A DNA stretch of 64,000 nt from Rivularia sp. MS3 (lineage in GTDB: Bacteria > Cyanobacteriota > Cyanobacteriia > Cyanobacteriales > Nostocaceae). Below are positions 4,556 to 18,008 of this stretch, piece by piece (the stretch's first letter is position 1; every line of letters begins with the position of its first letter). Where the stretch lies: the NCBI GenBank assembly GCA_019192545.1, contig JAHCMI010000001.1:124001-188000 (forward strand). Direction: 5' to 3'. The position numbers and the translations under genes are program-made. The notes under the pieces are model-generated. The model did no database searches and had not been told where the DNA came from. It saw nothing but the letters and a program-made list of their open reading frames with translations.

Positions 4556-5502
4556 TATTTTTTCTTCCCACCGAACAATCCACCAAATAAACCGCCACTT
4601 TCAGATTTTGCGGATTTACTTGCGACTTTCTCACTTACAGTACTCTTTTTACCGGCACCAGGTGAAGTTTTCTTTAAAAACTTATCAATTTTTGTCTTTC
4701 CTTCTAATGCTGTTTGGTCTTTGGGGTTTAATTGTAAAGCGCGGTCAAAGTGAATTTTTGCCATTTTAATTTGATTTTGCTTCATATAGACCACTCCAAT
4801 CAAGCTATGGCACTCACTACTATTTGGCTTCATCTTCAAAGCATCTTGCAATTCTACCCGAGCTTGTGATAATTGATTCTTAACAATTAATTCTTGGGCA
4901 CGACGTAAATAACCAGCGAAAACTGGGTCTTCTTTGGGTTGTGGTGGTAGGGAGTTATTTCCTACGGTGGTATTAGAGCTAGATGCTGATGTAGCATTTG
5001 TTGCCGACGAAGCTTTTAAAGATTGACCCGCACTCCGCATCAAATAAACTAAATTCAACTCGCTGATTTGCGCGATCGCTTCTAAGGCTTGCCCTAATGT
5101 TTTATATTGAATTTTGGCTACTTGGGATATGGCGTTTTTATAAGCACTGTCATAATTAGGCGTAGCTGCTAGCTGTCTGGCATTCTCGGTGGTTAATTCT
5201 ACAGAAGAGGAATCTTGAGCTAGACGTTTTCCTATTTGCGCTAAAACAGCAGTGTGTTCGGCGCGATTCTTTTCCTGAGAAAGGGTTTCGTAAGCTGGAT
5301 TTACCAACTTTGATAATAATTGACTAGCTAATCGCTTTTCATCATCGTTAGCCGCCCCACAGCTATCGGGATGCAAACGACGCGCAATTTTTAGGTAGCG
5401 TTTGCGGACTTCTTTTGCATCTGCATCCACTCGAAGGCACAAAACTGCATGGTAATCTATAAAGTCATACTTAAATAGACCGCGTTCTATTTGAAAAGAC
5501 AT
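4555..5502 (-). CDS. J-domain protein with C-terminal TPR repeats
   Basis: A 315-residue probable DnaK co-chaperone. The N-terminal J domain (residues about 15-75) contains the essential HPD tripeptide at residues 44-46 in ARRLHPDSC. There is a Ser/Ala/Thr/Asn-rich linker around residues 160-185. TPR-like helices follow from about residue 188 to 260 (ELIVKNQLSQARVELQDALK and HFDRALQLNPKD). The tail is basic and glycine-rich (GGLFGGLFGGKKK). No zinc finger or DnaJ C-terminal domain is present, so this is a type-III J protein. Its last base pair overlaps the hisZ start. A role in photosystem or Rubisco assembly is possible but not shown. Confidence 0.85.
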   Translation of the reverse strand: MSFQIERGLFKYDFIDYHAVLCLRVDADAKEVRKRYLKIARRLHPDSCGAANDDEKRLASQLLSKLVNPAYETLSQEKNRAEHTAVLAQIGKRLAQDSSSVELTTENARQLAATPNYDSAYKNAISQVAKIQYKTLGQALEAIAQISELNLVYLMRSAGQSLKASSATNATSASSSNTTVGNNSLPPQPKEDPVFAGYLRRAQELIVKNQLSQARVELQDALKMKPNSSECHSLIGVVYMKQNQIKMAKIHFDRALQLNPKDQTALEGKTKIDKFLKKTSPGAGKKSTVSEKVASKSAKSESGGLFGGLFGGKKK

Positions 5503-9050: not shown

Positions 9051-10337
9051 ATGCCACGCTCGGTTAAAGTACGTACTGAATTGATATCTCAGGTAAAGTC
9101 TGCTCTACCTCGTAATGGTTATATTCGTCAAACCGATTTAGCTGAGTATTTACAAATATCTCAATCTACTATCAGCAGTTTTCTTAACGGTAAACCCGTC
9201 GATTATTTGAATTTTACTGAAATTTGTCGGGCTTTAAATATAGAATGGCAAGATATCGCGGATTTAATGGTAGAAACTTCAACTATCGCACCTAAAATAT
9301 CAAATTCAGAAATATCTTTACCATCTCACTATTTAGAGTATCCATCCGGTTTTGTACCGTTAGATTCGCCATTTTATATAAGGCGATCGCCAATTGAAGA
9401 AAGATGTTACGAACAAATTCAACAACCAGGTGCTTTAATTAGAATTAAGTCACCCAGACAAATGGGTAAAACTTCACTTTTAGCAAAAATTATTGATAAA
9501 TCGCAATCTCAAGGAGACTGTACCGTAACTTTAGATTTTGAGCTTGCAGCAAGCCAAATTTTTGTTAATTTAGATAAGTTTTTACGTTGGTTTTGTGCCA
9601 GCATCGGTTTTGCTTTAAATATTCCGAATAAAATTGATGATTATTGGGATTTAGCTAATATTGTTGGCAGCAGTATGGCTTGTAAAGCTTATTTCGAGGA
9701 ATACTTGTTACCAACAATTAATAAACCGCTCACTCTTGGTTTAGACAAGGTTGATAAAATCTTTGAATATCCAGAAATTTATCGCGATTTTTTTGGATTG
9801 CTGCGGGCTTTACATGAAGAAGGTAAACGAAGAGAAATTTGGAAAAAGCTGCAATTAATTATTGTACATTCTACAGAAGTTTACGTTCCCCTCGATATTA
9901 ATCAATCACCATTCAATGTCGGCTTATCAATAGAACTACCCGAATTTAATCATCAGCAAATTTTGGATTTAGCTCAAAGACACCAACTAAATTGGGATAA
10001 TACCGAAGTTGATAAAATCATGAATTTAGTCAGCGGACATCCGTTTTTAGTTCGTCTTGCTATCTATCATATAGCTTGTAAAAATGTCTCTTTAAGTCAA
10101 ATATTAGAAAACGCTACAAGTTCAAAAAGTATTTACTCAGAACATTTACGCCGTCAAAGTTTTATTCTGACGCAACAACCGGAATTAGCAGAGGCTATGA
10201 AAGATATAGTTAACAATAGTAATCCTACATTATCGACAGTTACTAAATTTAAATTACAAAGTATGGGATTGATTAAGTTGCAGGGAGAAAATTTAGTACT
10301 GCGTAATAATTTATATCGTCAGTTTTTACGGGTTTGA
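9051..10337 (+). CDS. HTH plus AAA_35-type (STAND-like) ATPase
   Basis: A 428-residue protein. Residues about 20-72 form a Cro/C1-like helix-turn-helix (RQTDLAEYLQISQSTISSFL and EICRALNIEWQDIADL). From residue 100 to 420 there is an 'AAA-like' ATPase of the AAA_35 kind common in cyanobacteria: FYIRRSPIEERCYEQI, P-loop SPRQMGKTSLL (Lys140-Thr141) and Walker B region LGLDKVDKIFEYPEIY. In most relatives the Walker B ends LDEVD; here the catalytic-type Glu is Lys233, which may slow or abolish hydrolysis. A helical lid with FNHQQILDLAQRH and SGHPFLVRLAIYH follows. Such proteins occur with or without attached effector domains in signalling or defence clusters; the EAD1-FGE gene lies upstream on the same strand. 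Confidence 0.85.
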   Translation: MPRSVKVRTELISQVKSALPRNGYIRQTDLAEYLQISQSTISSFLNGKPVDYLNFTEICRALNIEWQDIADLMVETSTIAPKISNSEISLPSHYLEYPSGFVPLDSPFYIRRSPIEERCYEQIQQPGALIRIKSPRQMGKTSLLAKIIDKSQSQGDCTVTLDFELAASQIFVNLDKFLRWFCASIGFALNIPNKIDDYWDLANIVGSSMACKAYFEEYLLPTINKPLTLGLDKVDKIFEYPEIYRDFFGLLRALHEEGKRREIWKKLQLIIVHSTEVYVPLDINQSPFNVGLSIELPEFNHQQILDLAQRHQLNWDNTEVDKIMNLVSGHPFLVRLAIYHIACKNVSLSQILENATSSKSIYSEHLRRQSFILTQQPELAEAMKDIVNNSNPTLSTVTKFKLQSMGLIKLQGENLVLRNNLYRQFLRV

Positions 10338-12089: not shown

Positions 12090-12458
12090 TCAATCATCTT
12101 CAAGGGGTAATCCGGCACGAACTCTACCTTTAGCAAAATAACGTCCGAATTGCAGTTCGTAAACTTCGTCTTCGTCTTGGGTTTCGACTTCTAAATCCGA
12201 ACATGCATAGCTTACACACAATAGAGCATAACCTTTTCTTTGTAGATGAGGGGATAACCCCACAGCTTCGGGTTGAGAAATATTTCCTTTGATTACTCTT
12301 ACGGCACAAGTGGTACAAGCACCATTGCGACAAGAAAACGGTAACTCTACACCTTGTTTCTCAAAGCTATGCAAAATGTAGCGATCGCTGGGAACTTCTA
12401 AAGTACGTGTAATGCCTTTTGCTCTATCTCGAACTGTAACTTTGTATGTAGAGGACAT
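12090..12458 (-). CDS. Plant-type [2Fe-2S] ferredoxin with C-terminal extension
   Basis: A soluble one-electron carrier. The four cluster ligands are Cys43, Cys48, Cys51 and Cys81 (CRNGACTTCAVRV and later ALLCVSYACSD). At 122 residues it is about 25 longer than PetF, with an extension (YELQFGRYFAKGRVRAGLPLEDD) seen in the FdC2/Fed-type minor ferredoxins of cyanobacteria and plastids, which differ in redox potential from PetF. The partner is unknown. The ATG is directly in front of the conserved beta strand, so the start is firm. Confidence 0.88.
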   Translation of the reverse strand: MSSTYKVTVRDRAKGITRTLEVPSDRYILHSFEKQGVELPFSCRNGACTTCAVRVIKGNISQPEAVGLSPHLQRKGYALLCVSYACSDLEVETQDEDEVYELQFGRYFAKGRVRAGLPLEDD

Positions 12459-12641: not shown

Positions 12642-12712
12642 TTTTCAAATTAAATGTATATTAAATATTTCAAGCTAATTTCAAGCTCAAAGTTGTTTTA
12701 GCTTTACTTAAT

Positions 12713-12747
12713 CCCATGTATATAAAATGCGTGGGTTATTTTTTTAT
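12713..12747 (+). terminator. Probable intrinsic terminator after tRNA-Ser
   Basis: cccatg and cgtggg form a six-pair stem (one G-U) around a 12-base AT-rich loop, followed by ttattttttt. It lies about 70 bases downstream of the tRNA on the same strand. Confidence 0.65.
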
Positions 12748-13041
12748 ATCAAATGTATTTTTAGTGCAGATTCGGCAAGCCTAGCTATGATGGGGTATTT
12801 TGACTTTTACGAAAATATCTATTTCCAGCAAAAACACTATATTTTTATAAAAAAAAGTATTTTTTATTACTAAATAGTCTCAAATATATTGAATTTTAAA
12901 TAATTATGTAATAGTGATGATGACGTTAAGCAAAGGTTATGGTAGAGGTATTGCCGAAAATTAACGTTCGGATTAGTAAACCTTAATGTCTAAGGATTGT
13001 CTCAAAATTGGAATCAATAAAAATCAGTTTTAGGTAAAGGA

Positions 13042-15303
13042 ATGAAAAGATTGGCATTGCTGATTGGGGTAAGCGATTATGAATACGAGTTGAATCCCCT
13101 GCCAGGTGCCCTTAAGGATGTTGATGCGATGCAACGTGTTTTGCAGCATCCAGGTATGGGTGATTTTCCCGTAGATAATATCAGAGTATTAAAAAATCCA
13201 CAGATACCAAATATGAGTATGGAGATTGAAAAAATTTTCTCTAGCTCTGGGAAAGATGATTTGGTATTACTATATTTTTCTGGGCATGGTATCAAAGATG
13301 ATGACGGTAATCTTTACTTAGCCAGCAGTCAAACTTATAAGCATCCTAACGGACAATTAATTACTTCGAGTACGGTGCCTGCAAGTTTTGTACACAACAT
13401 AATGGATAAAAGCCTTTCTAGGAGGCAAGTAATTATTCTTGATTGTTGCTTTAGCGGTGCTTTCGCTAGGGGTATGACTGTAAAGAATGATGGGCATGTA
13501 GATATTAAAAGTCAGCTGGGAGGAGAAGGAAGAGCGGTTTTAACTTCTTCTACTTCTACTCAATACTCTTTTGAGGAACAAGCCTCGAATCATTCTATTT
13601 ATACGCGCTTTCTTGTGGAAGGAATTGAAAATGGTAAAGCTGATATAGATGGTGATGGTGTGATTTGTGTTGACGAGCTGCATGAATATACTCGTACAAG
13701 AATGCAGAAAACCGCACCTCAAAGCAAACCTGAAATTTATGCTTTTAAAGAAGGTTATAAAATTCAGCTATCTAAGGTAGATGTAGCTTATCAAAAAAGT
13801 TTATCGCTTCTGAGAAATCAAATAAATTTTGGTGAGTTAAAGTTAGGAGGAACCCAGCAAGTTCAAAATGCTGACGGTTCTTTATTACAATTTGATTATC
13901 TACCCAATTTTTTAGAACCGTTTGAGTCATTTATTCACAGTTTAATTAACCAATTATCATATTTTCATACTAGTCAAAATAACCTAAATAATCTATCAGA
14001 TACTTCTGAATTTCAAATATTAGAATCAATTAGAGAAGCTTCGGAAGCTGATTTTGTATTTGTAGTTGAAAATGATAACTATAATAATTGTGTTGTTAAG
14101 TTACAAAGCAATTTAGCAGATAATATCGATAAGAATGCTTATATCAATATATTAAATACTACAATTTTTCCAATAATTTCTTACGAATCAGTTTTTAATC
14201 CTTCGTATCATGGAACATACAAAATTAATGAGTATGGCAATCATTACGCTAATGCTTTCGCGATTATACCCTTACAAATGCCTCCGAAAGCTGAAATTAT
14301 GGTAGTTTGCGGCTTACGCTGCAATTCATGTTTACTCTGTGATGCATATGGCAAAATTTTATCGAGTTTTTATCAAAGCACTCAAGAGTCATTAGAGCCT
14401 ATGTTTGTGGAAGCAGCTATTATTGATGCTCTCAAAACTGATTTTAAGTTTGTTTCTAAATCGCTATACGACAGACGGTTTCAACTATTTTGCGAACGAT
14501 TACAAAAAATGGTTGTTTATTTTGAACCCGTTATTTGTATAGATGCTAATGAATTTTTTATCAGTGGTTGGGAAGCTTTAGCTAGAGATACTCAAACTTT
14601 AACTGCTCCGGTTGATTTATTTCAAACTGCTGAATTATGGGGTTCTCAATTTAAAATTGAATTAGACCAGTATTTTCTCAGAGTTGCGGCAAAAAGCTAT
14701 AAACAAGCCAGAAAATCAAAACAAAGAAGACTCACTGATGTTGTCCCATTATCAGTTAATGTATATCCAGAATCTTTAATTAGCAAGGCATATTGTGAAA
14801 CTGTCAGAGAAATTATTAAAGACAATATTATTTCTCCACGCAACTTAATATTAGAAATATCTGAAAAATCTGAATTACCGAAGTTTTGTGATGGTGTCAG
14901 ATTAGAAAATCCTTTAACTTGTTTCAAAAATAAACTTTTAGAATATGTTCATCAATTCAATATTAGATTTGCAATTGACGATTTCGGAGTTGGTCATTCT
15001 TCTGTTTCTCGGTTGGCAGGTTTAAATCCATGTCATGTTAAAATTGACCGCGAAATTCTGCATCATCAATCTAATAATTTAATTATTAATTTCGTTCACC
15101 AAATAGTTAAATCTAATAATTTATATCCGCCGAATGTCATTGTCGAGGGTGTAGATGAAGAAACTCCTATTAGTTTATATCAATTGAAAGAAATGGGTGT
15201 CACTTATGTTCAAGGACATATTATTGGTAAACCCGAACCAGAAGTTTATCGTCTCAGTCAGCAAAAGTATGAGGAATTAAGGAAAATGATTTTGGGAGAA
15301 TAG
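13042..15303 (+). CDS. Caspase-like (peptidase C14) protein fused to EAL domain
   Basis: A 753-residue signalling protein with three parts. Residues 1-245 are a caspase/metacaspase fold (opening RLALLIGVSDYEY) with the catalytic His82 in FSGHG and Cys136 in ILDCCFSGA. Inside it residues 201-212 (DIDGDGVICVDE) match the EF-hand calcium loop pattern. Residues about 250-470 are of no family I recognise and contain CGLRCNSCLLCDAYG, with four cysteines. Residues 475-740 are an EAL domain that keeps the motifs needed for c-di-GMP hydrolysis: EAL at 511-513, Asn573, Glu605, DDFGVGHSS at 646 onward, Lys667, EGVDEE at 702 and QG at 724. No signal peptide or membrane segment is seen. I infer control of a protease by c-di-GMP, or the reverse. 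It stands alone with over 200 bases on both sides. Confidence 0.9.
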   Translation: MKRLALLIGVSDYEYELNPLPGALKDVDAMQRVLQHPGMGDFPVDNIRVLKNPQIPNMSMEIEKIFSSSGKDDLVLLYFSGHGIKDDDGNLYLASSQTYKHPNGQLITSSTVPASFVHNIMDKSLSRRQVIILDCCFSGAFARGMTVKNDGHVDIKSQLGGEGRAVLTSSTSTQYSFEEQASNHSIYTRFLVEGIENGKADIDGDGVICVDELHEYTRTRMQKTAPQSKPEIYAFKEGYKIQLSKVDVAYQKSLSLLRNQINFGELKLGGTQQVQNADGSLLQFDYLPNFLEPFESFIHSLINQLSYFHTSQNNLNNLSDTSEFQILESIREASEADFVFVVENDNYNNCVVKLQSNLADNIDKNAYINILNTTIFPIISYESVFNPSYHGTYKINEYGNHYANAFAIIPLQMPPKAEIMVVCGLRCNSCLLCDAYGKILSSFYQSTQESLEPMFVEAAIIDALKTDFKFVSKSLYDRRFQLFCERLQKMVVYFEPVICIDANEFFISGWEALARDTQTLTAPVDLFQTAELWGSQFKIELDQYFLRVAAKSYKQARKSKQRRLTDVVPLSVNVYPESLISKAYCETVREIIKDNIISPRNLILEISEKSELPKFCDGVRLENPLTCFKNKLLEYVHQFNIRFAIDDFGVGHSSVSRLAGLNPCHVKIDREILHHQSNNLIINFVHQIVKSNNLYPPNVIVEGVDEETPISLYQLKEMGVTYVQGHIIGKPEPEVYRLSQQKYEELRKMILGE

Positions 15304-16577: not shown

Positions 16578-18008
16578 GTGAGTCAGTCATTTGATTACGA
16601 TTTAGCGATCGTCGGCGCTGGAGTAGGTGGACATGGCGCTGCCTTACACGCTGTCAGTTGCGGATTAAAAACTGCAATTATTGAAGCTGGTGATATGGGG
16701 GGGACTTGCGTTAATCGCGGCTGTATCCCCTCGAAGGCTTTACTTGCTGCTTCTGGAAGAGTACGGGAGTTACGCGATGCTTACCATCTCAAATCGATGG
16801 GAATTCAACTCGATAATGTTCGATTTGAAAGAGAGGATATCGCCAATCATGCCAATAATTTGGTGGCTAAGATTCAAGGAGATTTAACTAATTCTCTGAA
16901 GCGTCTGGGTGTTGATATTATTCAAGGCTGGGGTAAAATCGCCGGGAAACAAAAGGTTACGGTTGATATGCCCAATGGTGAAAAAACTATTACTGCTAAG
17001 GATATTATTCTTTCAACTGGTTCTGTTCCTTTTGTTCCACCAGGGATTGAAGTTGATGGTAAAACCGTATTTACTAGCGACCAAGCGGTAAGATTGGAAT
17101 GGTTGCCGCAATGGGTAGCGATTGTTGGTAGCGGCTACATCGGTTTGGAATTTTCCGATGTTTATTCGGCTTTGGGTTGTGAAATCTCGATGATTGAAGC
17201 TTTACCTGATTTAATGCCGGGATTCGATCGCGATATTGCTAAATTAGCCCAAAGAGTATTAATAAATCCTCGCGATATTGAAACTTATTCGGGTATATAC
17301 GCTAAAAAGATTATCCCCGGTTCCCCGGTAATAATTGAATTAGCAGATTTTAAAACTAAAGAAGATGTTGATGTATTAGAAGTTGATGCTTGTCTGGTTG
17401 CTACCGGAAGAATTCCAGCTACGCAAAATATTGGTTTGGATTCGGTAGGGGTTGAACTTGATAGACGTAAGTTTATCCCGGTTAATGATTCGATGGCGGT
17501 ATTAAGTCAAGGGGAACCTGTACCTCATTTATGGGCAATTGGTGATGCTACCGGTAAGATGATGTTAGCTCATGCTGCTTCGGCTCAAGGTATTACAGCA
17601 GTTGAAAATATTTGCGGTAGAACTAAGGAAATTGATTATTTAAGTATTCCCGCAGCTGCATTTACTCATCCAGAAATTAGCTATGTGGGAATGACTCAGG
17701 AACAAGCTAAAGACAAAGGTAAAGAGCTAGGTTTTGAAGTTGGTGTTTCTAAAAGTTATTTCAAAGGTAATTCTAAAGCTTTAGCAGAAGGAGAAGCCGA
17801 CGGAATCGCCAAAGTTATATACCGCAAAGATACCGGAGAAGTTTTAGGAGTCCATATTTTCGGACTTCACGCAGCCGACATTATCCACGAAGCTAGTGCG
17901 GCGATCGCCAATCGTCAAAGCGTCAATTCCCTGGCTCATTTAGTCCACGCTCACCCCACACTTTCGGAAGTTTTGGATGAAGCGTATAAAAAGGCAGCAG
18001 TCAGTTAA
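16578..18008 (+). CDS. lpdA: Dihydrolipoyl dehydrogenase (E3)
   Basis: FAD-dependent flavoprotein that reoxidises dihydrolipoyl groups with NAD+, the E3 part of pyruvate dehydrogenase and the glycine cleavage system in the cytosol. The 476-residue chain has the FAD motif [17 protein letters not shown], the redox disulfide [16 protein letters not shown], the NAD motif [16 protein letters not shown] and the C-terminal [13 protein letters not shown] with the catalytic His-Glu pair. Translation starts at a GTG; no ATG lies between it and the FAD motif. trpC follows 106 bases later across repeat DNA. Confidence 0.95.

Follow-up and report, generated by a model that had tools for sequence, protein, structure and literature searches.

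The fusion and its conservation

An open reading frame that joins a caspase-like protease to an EAL domain raises two questions: whether such a fusion is genuine, and which half of the protein controls the other. The frame lies in the stretch of 64,000 nucleotides from Rivularia sp. MS3 analysed here (the window), and its product consists of an EACC1-type caspase, a GAF-like middle part that is blank in Pfam and an EAL domain, with no Pfam match to GGDEF in the chain.

13042–15303, + strand: coding sequence of the caspase–GAF-like–EAL fusion, 753 amino acids, ATG start (Pfam, NCBIfam, relatives and dN/dS)

An AlphaFold model of the whole chain, built from 44 sequences, has a mean pLDDT of 84.3 and a pTM of 0.64, with three folded parts and a linker that is partly weak. 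Full-length relatives with 89% and 78% identity come from two congeneric genomes, one of them apparently that of Calothrix parasitica NIES-267 (L111). Against the genomes of the 89% and 78% relatives respectively, the caspase part has dN/dS values (Nei–Gojobori) of 0.081 and 0.109, the GAF-like part 0.135 and 0.108 (synonymous sites being nearly saturated in the second comparison) and the EAL part 0.109 and 0.152, compared with 0.581 and 1.013 for the 40 codons of the linker. All three domains are conserved between genomes and the linker is not. Given the two full-length relatives and the low dN/dS of the domains, the fusion is not a product of chance, and the sequence-only reading of a caspase and an EAL domain in one protein holds as a real, conserved fusion in which both active sites are intact by alignment.

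The caspase domain

The NCBIfam model NF047832 (‘caspase, EACC1-associated type’) matches residues 5–223 with 169.9 bits, above its cut-off of 140, and the single PADLOC match is to a model named ‘caspase’.

13045–13740, + strand: caspase (Peptidase_C14) domain, residues 2–233 (Pfam E-value 2e-23)
13285–13287, + strand: catalytic His82, conserved in all 28 fused sequences of alignment A2
13447–13449, + strand: catalytic Cys136, conserved in 27 of the 28 fused sequences of alignment A2
13642–13677, + strand: EF-hand-like loop DIDGDGVICVDE, residues 201–212, which fits the EF-hand pattern

Alignment A2 contains 44 sequences including that of the window, 28 fused and 16 stand-alone, and the one exception at Cys136 is a serine in Nostoc sp. 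WHI (L161). Judged by this alignment, the His–Cys dyad expected of an active caspase-fold protease is present in the window protein, and the two catalytic residues named from the sequence are borne out. The EF-hand-type loop named alongside them stands as a pattern, but the Pfam EF-hand models score 15.7 and 13.6 bits, under their cut-offs of 25.9 and 25.4. The pattern occurs in 27 of 33 EAL-fused caspases versus 19 of 21 other caspases (two of the 21 being duplicates), and the loop is a trait of the caspase family. Because it is also common in caspases without an EAL domain, the proposal that calcium is an input particular to the fusion is unsupported.

The linker and the GAF-like middle domain

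13777–13896, + strand: linker, residues 246–285, partly of low model confidence, dN/dS 0.58 and 1.0
13897–14499, + strand: GAF-like domain, residues 286–486, by predicted fold, without a Pfam match

In several stand-alone relatives the N-terminus is similar to the second half of the linker (INFGELKLG...), and a short peptide (near KIN-GE-KL, by eye) that is common to several stand-alone proteins lies within the linker in the window, as expected if the caspase had been joined near residue 255. Inspection of the linker by eye showed no conserved cleavage site.

When modelled alone from 51 sequences, the middle part has a pLDDT of 92.1 and a pTM of 0.90, and a fold search of this model against the PDB returns as best matches mostly GAF domains and phytochrome GAF modules, with probabilities near 1.0, a best E-value of 1.2e-3 and TM-scores of about 0.33–0.43 by query length. 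A Foldseek search with the whole model is uninformative on the domains other than EAL, all 50 matches listed being EAL-containing structures. By sequence, Pfam gives none of the 51 members scanned a GAF match at E ≤ 0.1, and when a profile of the middle domain was run on the sequences of the PDB the best E-value was 0.56. The predicted fold thus supports, and does not prove, a GAF-like identity. The suggestion of a new sensor domain in the centre of the protein, for which a profile search and structure prediction had been proposed, survives in that there is no Pfam family and the type is that of a sensor, but the domain is GAF-like by predicted fold. A Cys4 group (residues 423, 427, 430 and 433), also put forward for the central region, was rejected as a site: Cys423 is kept in 39 of the 44 sequences of A2, the other three residues are each present in 1 of 44, the window itself, and the full set is accordingly confined to the window.

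The EAL domain and its clade

14500–15234, + strand: EAL domain, residues 487–731 (Pfam E-value 6.4e-30), with ten catalytic positions kept

The Pfam model PF00563 matches with 104.7 bits, over its cut-off of 31.3. Residues E511, N573, E605, E608, D646, D647, K667, D669, E702 and Q724, which we take to be the catalytic positions, are kept in all 44 sequences of A2 and align with those of the known structure 4q6j. The motif residues noted from the sequence are therefore conserved throughout, and the possibility that the metal and lysine residues would be missing on alignment is not borne out, K667 included. Loop 6 reads DDFG-V-G, with the valine in 41 of 44 sequences, whereas ordinary cyanobacterial EAL domains have DDFGTG in 14 of 14. 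On its aligned residues, the domain is apparently an intact c-di-GMP phosphodiesterase.

In a tree of the EAL domains, with 14 family loci thinned out, the family forms one clade (66 rows versus 14 ordinary cyanobacterial EALs, support 100/100), a result that is partly expected since most family rows were first found via two EAL motifs.

N-terminal partners and exchange of caspase heads

Members of this clade carry other domains in the place of the caspase. Pfam recognises CHAT at the N-terminus of L163 (34.4 bits, cut-off 24), TIR_2 in L188 and L170 (54.2 and 48.4 bits, cut-off 28), EAD4 in L155 and L159 (65.8 and 69.2 bits, cut-off 27) and EAD7 in L165 (44.8 bits, cut-off 32). The GAF-like profile matches L155, L159, L163 and L188, and at 1e-3 it does not match L165 or L170. 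By these domain matches, clade members carry a caspase, CHAT, TIR, EAD4 or EAD7 in front, or stand alone. The CHAT member is adjoined by a TIR protein and a TPR protein; no conflict-system domain was found in the scanned neighbours of the two EAD4 members and the EAD7 member. A gammaproteobacterial branch of the clade (L171–L179, L181–L184 and L187, from Granulosicoccaceae and Chromatiales) has N-terminal parts of 350–400 amino acids; three of these were scanned and have no Pfam family over the cut-off, with a TIR match under the cut-off in one. The 14 members carry a by-eye label only, with one sub-cut-off match in three scanned, and were not counted as TIR.

In an 80-row tree of the GAF-EAL part, eight N-terminal labels need 12 changes where the minimum is 7; this quick tree has long branches, uses 14 ‘TIR-like’ labels assigned by eye and does not include L124, L154, L166, L167, L186, L189 or short ORFs.

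There has been some exchange of heads. A tree of the caspase domains (48 rows, without L160, L162, L169, L185 and two duplicates) groups 20 EAL-fused heads together (90/98), and places the head of the window protein, those of its two same-genus relatives and that of L065 with ten EAL-less caspases (80/87). The L065 head pairs with a non-EAL caspase (96/98), those of L149 and L161 are unplaced, and those of L151, L180 and L092 are distant (branch 2.8), their GAF-EAL parts being members of the family. A single clade for the 26 EACC1-type EAL-fused heads has a p of 0.017, but 0.144 without L065; one fusion event was accordingly rejected with that qualification. The trees support a second head for L065 and a distant head for L151, L180 and L092; as the rejection of one clade rests on L065, they only suggest a separate origin of the head in the window protein.

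The EACC1-like partner gene

An ORF of 122–134 amino acids with a short hydrophobic stretch containing glycine, here called EACC1-like, lies directly upstream of 8 of 33 distinct fusions.

12643–13041, + strand: upstream gap, occupied by an EACC1-like gene in L065, L115, L141–L143, L145, L150 and L156; none found in the window

The L065 gene is at the same ferredoxin locus (see below) as the fusion of the window, and the L115 gene belongs to Scytonematopsis contorta. An EACC1-like ORF is also upstream at 10 of the 17 fetched EAL-less caspase loci (flanks of 1.5 kb), once at a distance of 0.3 kb, and none is present at L009, L037 and L039, where a separate caspase lies beside the stand-alone module. 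Of six distinct upstream ORFs that were scanned, three match the Pfam EACC1 family (PF19953), all under the cut-off (22.7, 19.5 and 16.8 versus 23.6 bits), and partial matches in Mastigocoleus are read as EACC1 remnants.

A profile search of the window's genome found no EACC1-like gene, whether upstream of the fusion or elsewhere. With this profile the gene was detected in all 7 other genomes searched, although four of them had contributed rows to the profile itself, and the two same-genus genomes that bear the fusion each have an EACC1-like gene, away from the fusion. The window's genome does not have the two-gene EACC1 system as defined.

Two side observations concern the gene at other loci. 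In Calothrix sp. PCC 7103 (L154:4641–5741) an EACC1-like ORF is followed by a 232-residue EAL remnant with no caspase between them, and the same contig has a second GAF-EAL gene, stand-alone, elsewhere (L133). Downstream of the stand-alone GAF-EAL gene of L072 lies an EACC1-like gene (L072:2508–2885, − strand); the fetched stretch contains no match to a caspase.

Distribution and genomic context

Of 217 genomes in the family to which the window belongs, 53 have the GAF-EAL part at E ≤ 1e-30; within the genus, it is present in three of eight. Of 54 listed places outside the window, 53 were fetched (a second copy in G135, a genome with 38% contamination, being left out), and 23 of these 53 loci are caspase-fused by BLAST. 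A sample drawn from the whole class has matches at E ≤ 1e-45 in 14 of its 388 genomes, counting that of the window. Among named GTDB genomes, the best 80 of 160 relatives amount to 79 distinct loci, and caspase–EAL fusions within these 80 include Leptolyngbya, Leptothoe, Oculatella and Brasilonema as well as one Planctomycetes, one Anaerolineae and two Actinobacteria genomes. Of 301 genomes from the phylum to which the Roseiflexus genome belongs, one matches at E ≤ 1e-45, namely the query-centre genome itself.

Two of the fusion loci have Pfam-blank ORFs that overlap the end of the caspase–EAL gene by four bases (L162:6464–7219 in Anaerolineae and L160:6374–7870 in Planctomycetes), either possible partners or chance frames.

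Viral contigs gave seven stretches that matched a pattern, none of which encodes a relative (a single-protein query, which reaches close relatives only), and no plasmid record has one place covering 80% of the query. The best plasmid match is to the GAF-EAL part (residues 339–750, 41%) on a record of Tolypothrix sp. PCC 7712, where a GAF-EAL frame without an annotated gene ends the small record (NZ_CP063797.1:35244–36482; L095). The GAF-EAL module may also travel on plasmids.

The fusion of the window lies in a locus that it shares with relatives of the module.

12090–12458, − strand: ferredoxin-like gene, left-hand marker of the locus common to these relatives (ORF list and locus comparison)
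16578–18008, + strand: dihydrolipoamide dehydrogenase-like gene, right-hand marker of the locus common to these relatives (ORF list and locus comparison)

A ferredoxin gene is beside the module in 21 loci including the window, a count to which short flanks may hide additions; 17 of these are stand-alone and four are fused (the window, L065, L098 and L099), so that the fusion of the window sits where most such relatives carry the module alone. The ORFs near the gene look like housekeeping genes on a reading of the ORF list. About 2.7 kb upstream of the fusion, at 9051–10337 (+ strand), the window encodes a protein with an HTH and an AAA_35 ATPase domain (AAA_35 3.8e-141). At two ferredoxin loci (L114:6672–8288 and L117:6507–8150) a caspase–GUN4 gene (GUN4 1.8e-44 and 7.2e-41) follows a stand-alone GAF-EAL gene, caspase and EAL being neighbours there, unfused. 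Upstream of a gene scored as stand-alone (L120:4836) is a weak caspase match at 4643–4846 (37%, E-value 4e-4), which suggests the loss of a caspase head.

Proposed mechanism and alternative readings

Our tentative reading, possible if somewhat short of probable, is that the window protein is a caspase-gated phosphodiesterase effector that depletes c-di-GMP, made of an EACC1-type caspase and a dedicated GAF-EAL module. The caspase head would sense or relay a danger state and switch on the EAL phosphodiesterase, either through autocleavage in the freely evolving linker or through contact, the GAF-like domain could tune EAL activity through a small ligand, and c-di-GMP might then drop under the level that the cell needs, leading to growth stop or death. 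We infer the order from caspase to EAL, that is, which half controls which. Since the EACC1 partner is apparently missing from the window's genome, the input must arrive by another route. That genome has 11 GGDEF matches. In Anabaena PCC 7120, according to a 2026 study (PMC13075795) that does not mention caspases, c-di-GMP is essential with a lethal threshold, and filaments fragment and growth stops when it is depleted. An EAL enzyme set loose could therefore arrest or kill a cell. That EAL is the output is favoured somewhat more by the EAD-linked and stand-alone members, as those with EAD4 and EAD7 have no other recognised enzyme and the GAF-EAL part is their likely output. Against an effector stand the absence of a cleavage site by eye in the linker, the lack of an EACC1-like gene in the window's genome, the weak EACC1 identity (three of six PF19953 matches, all under cut-off) and the predominance of the stand-alone module at the ferredoxin locus (17 of 21), beside apparent housekeeping genes. 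Extending the idea to the whole EAL clade, as a portable suicide module that, once a caspase-, CHAT-, TIR- or EAD-coupled system fires, would bring c-di-GMP below the survival threshold, is doubtful.

Active EAL enzymes can serve as sensors, and the sequence-only reading had the control run in the opposite direction: GAF-EAL would bind or hydrolyse c-di-GMP as a trigger enzyme, and the caspase that it switches would be the actual effector. Domains of the effector type, namely caspase, CHAT and TIR, all occur in one EAL clade, much as if one sensor served several effectors, and they fit this direction equally well; the members linked to EAD4 or EAD7 and those that stand alone have no effector in the same chain, however, and a catalytic EAL residue is lost in none of the 44 aligned members, where a pure sensor would permit loss, which makes control in this direction rather unlikely. 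The housekeeping-like neighbours, the 17 stand-alone and four fused ferredoxin-side loci and the lack of an EACC1-like gene would also suit everyday signalling, in which a GAF-controlled c-di-GMP phosphodiesterase acquired its caspase head beside the ferredoxin–lpd locus and is processed or turned over by it, with no role in death or defence. This everyday function seems rather unlikely for a family that is joined to conflict-system domains in several phyla, has EACC1-like genes beside other fusions and keeps the caspase dyad in 27 of 28 fusions. A still different substrate, in which EAL would hydrolyse another cyclic nucleotide of a conflict system as an off-switch for the caspase, would accord with the TIR partners, with the TIR-protein neighbour of the CHAT member and with the valine of loop 6 in place of the DDFGTG of ordinary EALs. 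It is very improbable, given that the ten catalytic positions agree with EALs of known structure in the 4q6j alignment and that no nucleotide cyclase gene is among the ORFs listed around the gene.

Comparison with known systems

The caspase–EAL combination is already on record: a 2021 census (PMC8283722, Table 1) lists EAL in 2 of 473 cyanobacterial orthocaspases, so that the earlier statement of knowing no described protein that fuses the two is not supported and the architecture is on file, as a census count. A separate GAF-EAL clade with conflict-domain partners was not found among the papers listed in literature searches, which covered mostly open main texts, nor was a study of a caspase–EAL protein, of EAL with CHAT, TIR or EAD, or a description of cell death executed by second-messenger depletion. 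Caspase, CHAT, TIR, EAD4 and EAD7 are parts of bacterial conflict systems that are tied via one EAL clade to c-di-GMP, and destroying c-di-GMP may be one way in which conflict or cell-death systems stop a cell. The targets of prokaryotic caspases are a long-standing question, for which a candidate output is here in the same chain and measurable as c-di-GMP.

The EACC1 two-gene systems (System 4 of Kaur et al. 2020, PMC7159879) have a constant N-terminal caspase with up to 50 C-terminal domains, for the deployment of which as effectors auto-proteolysis was proposed. The window protein resembles them in this constant caspase with a variable C-terminal domain and in its NF047832 match, and its relatives do so in the EACC1-like gene upstream of 8 of 33 fusions; it differs in that no such gene was found in its genome, and the systems are described as widespread in actinobacteria, with sporadic occurrence in proteobacteria. 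Nucleotide-related domains given there for related systems are GGDEF, GAF and a calcineurin-type phosphodiesterase; the main text nowhere contains the word EAL. Like the cyanobacterial orthocaspases of PMC8283722, the protein joins Peptidase_C14 to a C-terminal accessory domain, but the passages on it in that census include neither a sequence nor a mechanism, nor do they connect it with other EAL partners. With the EAL phosphodiesterases of known structure (4q6j, 3n3t and 3u2e among them) it shares the EAL fold and the catalytic positions, but it belongs to a clade separate from 14 ordinary cyanobacterial EALs, has a GAF-like domain invisible to Pfam and no GGDEF match, and is joined to a caspase. 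The EAD-linked conflict proteins are represented in the same EAL clade by two EAD4 members and one EAD7 member, in contrast to which the window protein bears a caspase in the place of the EAD.
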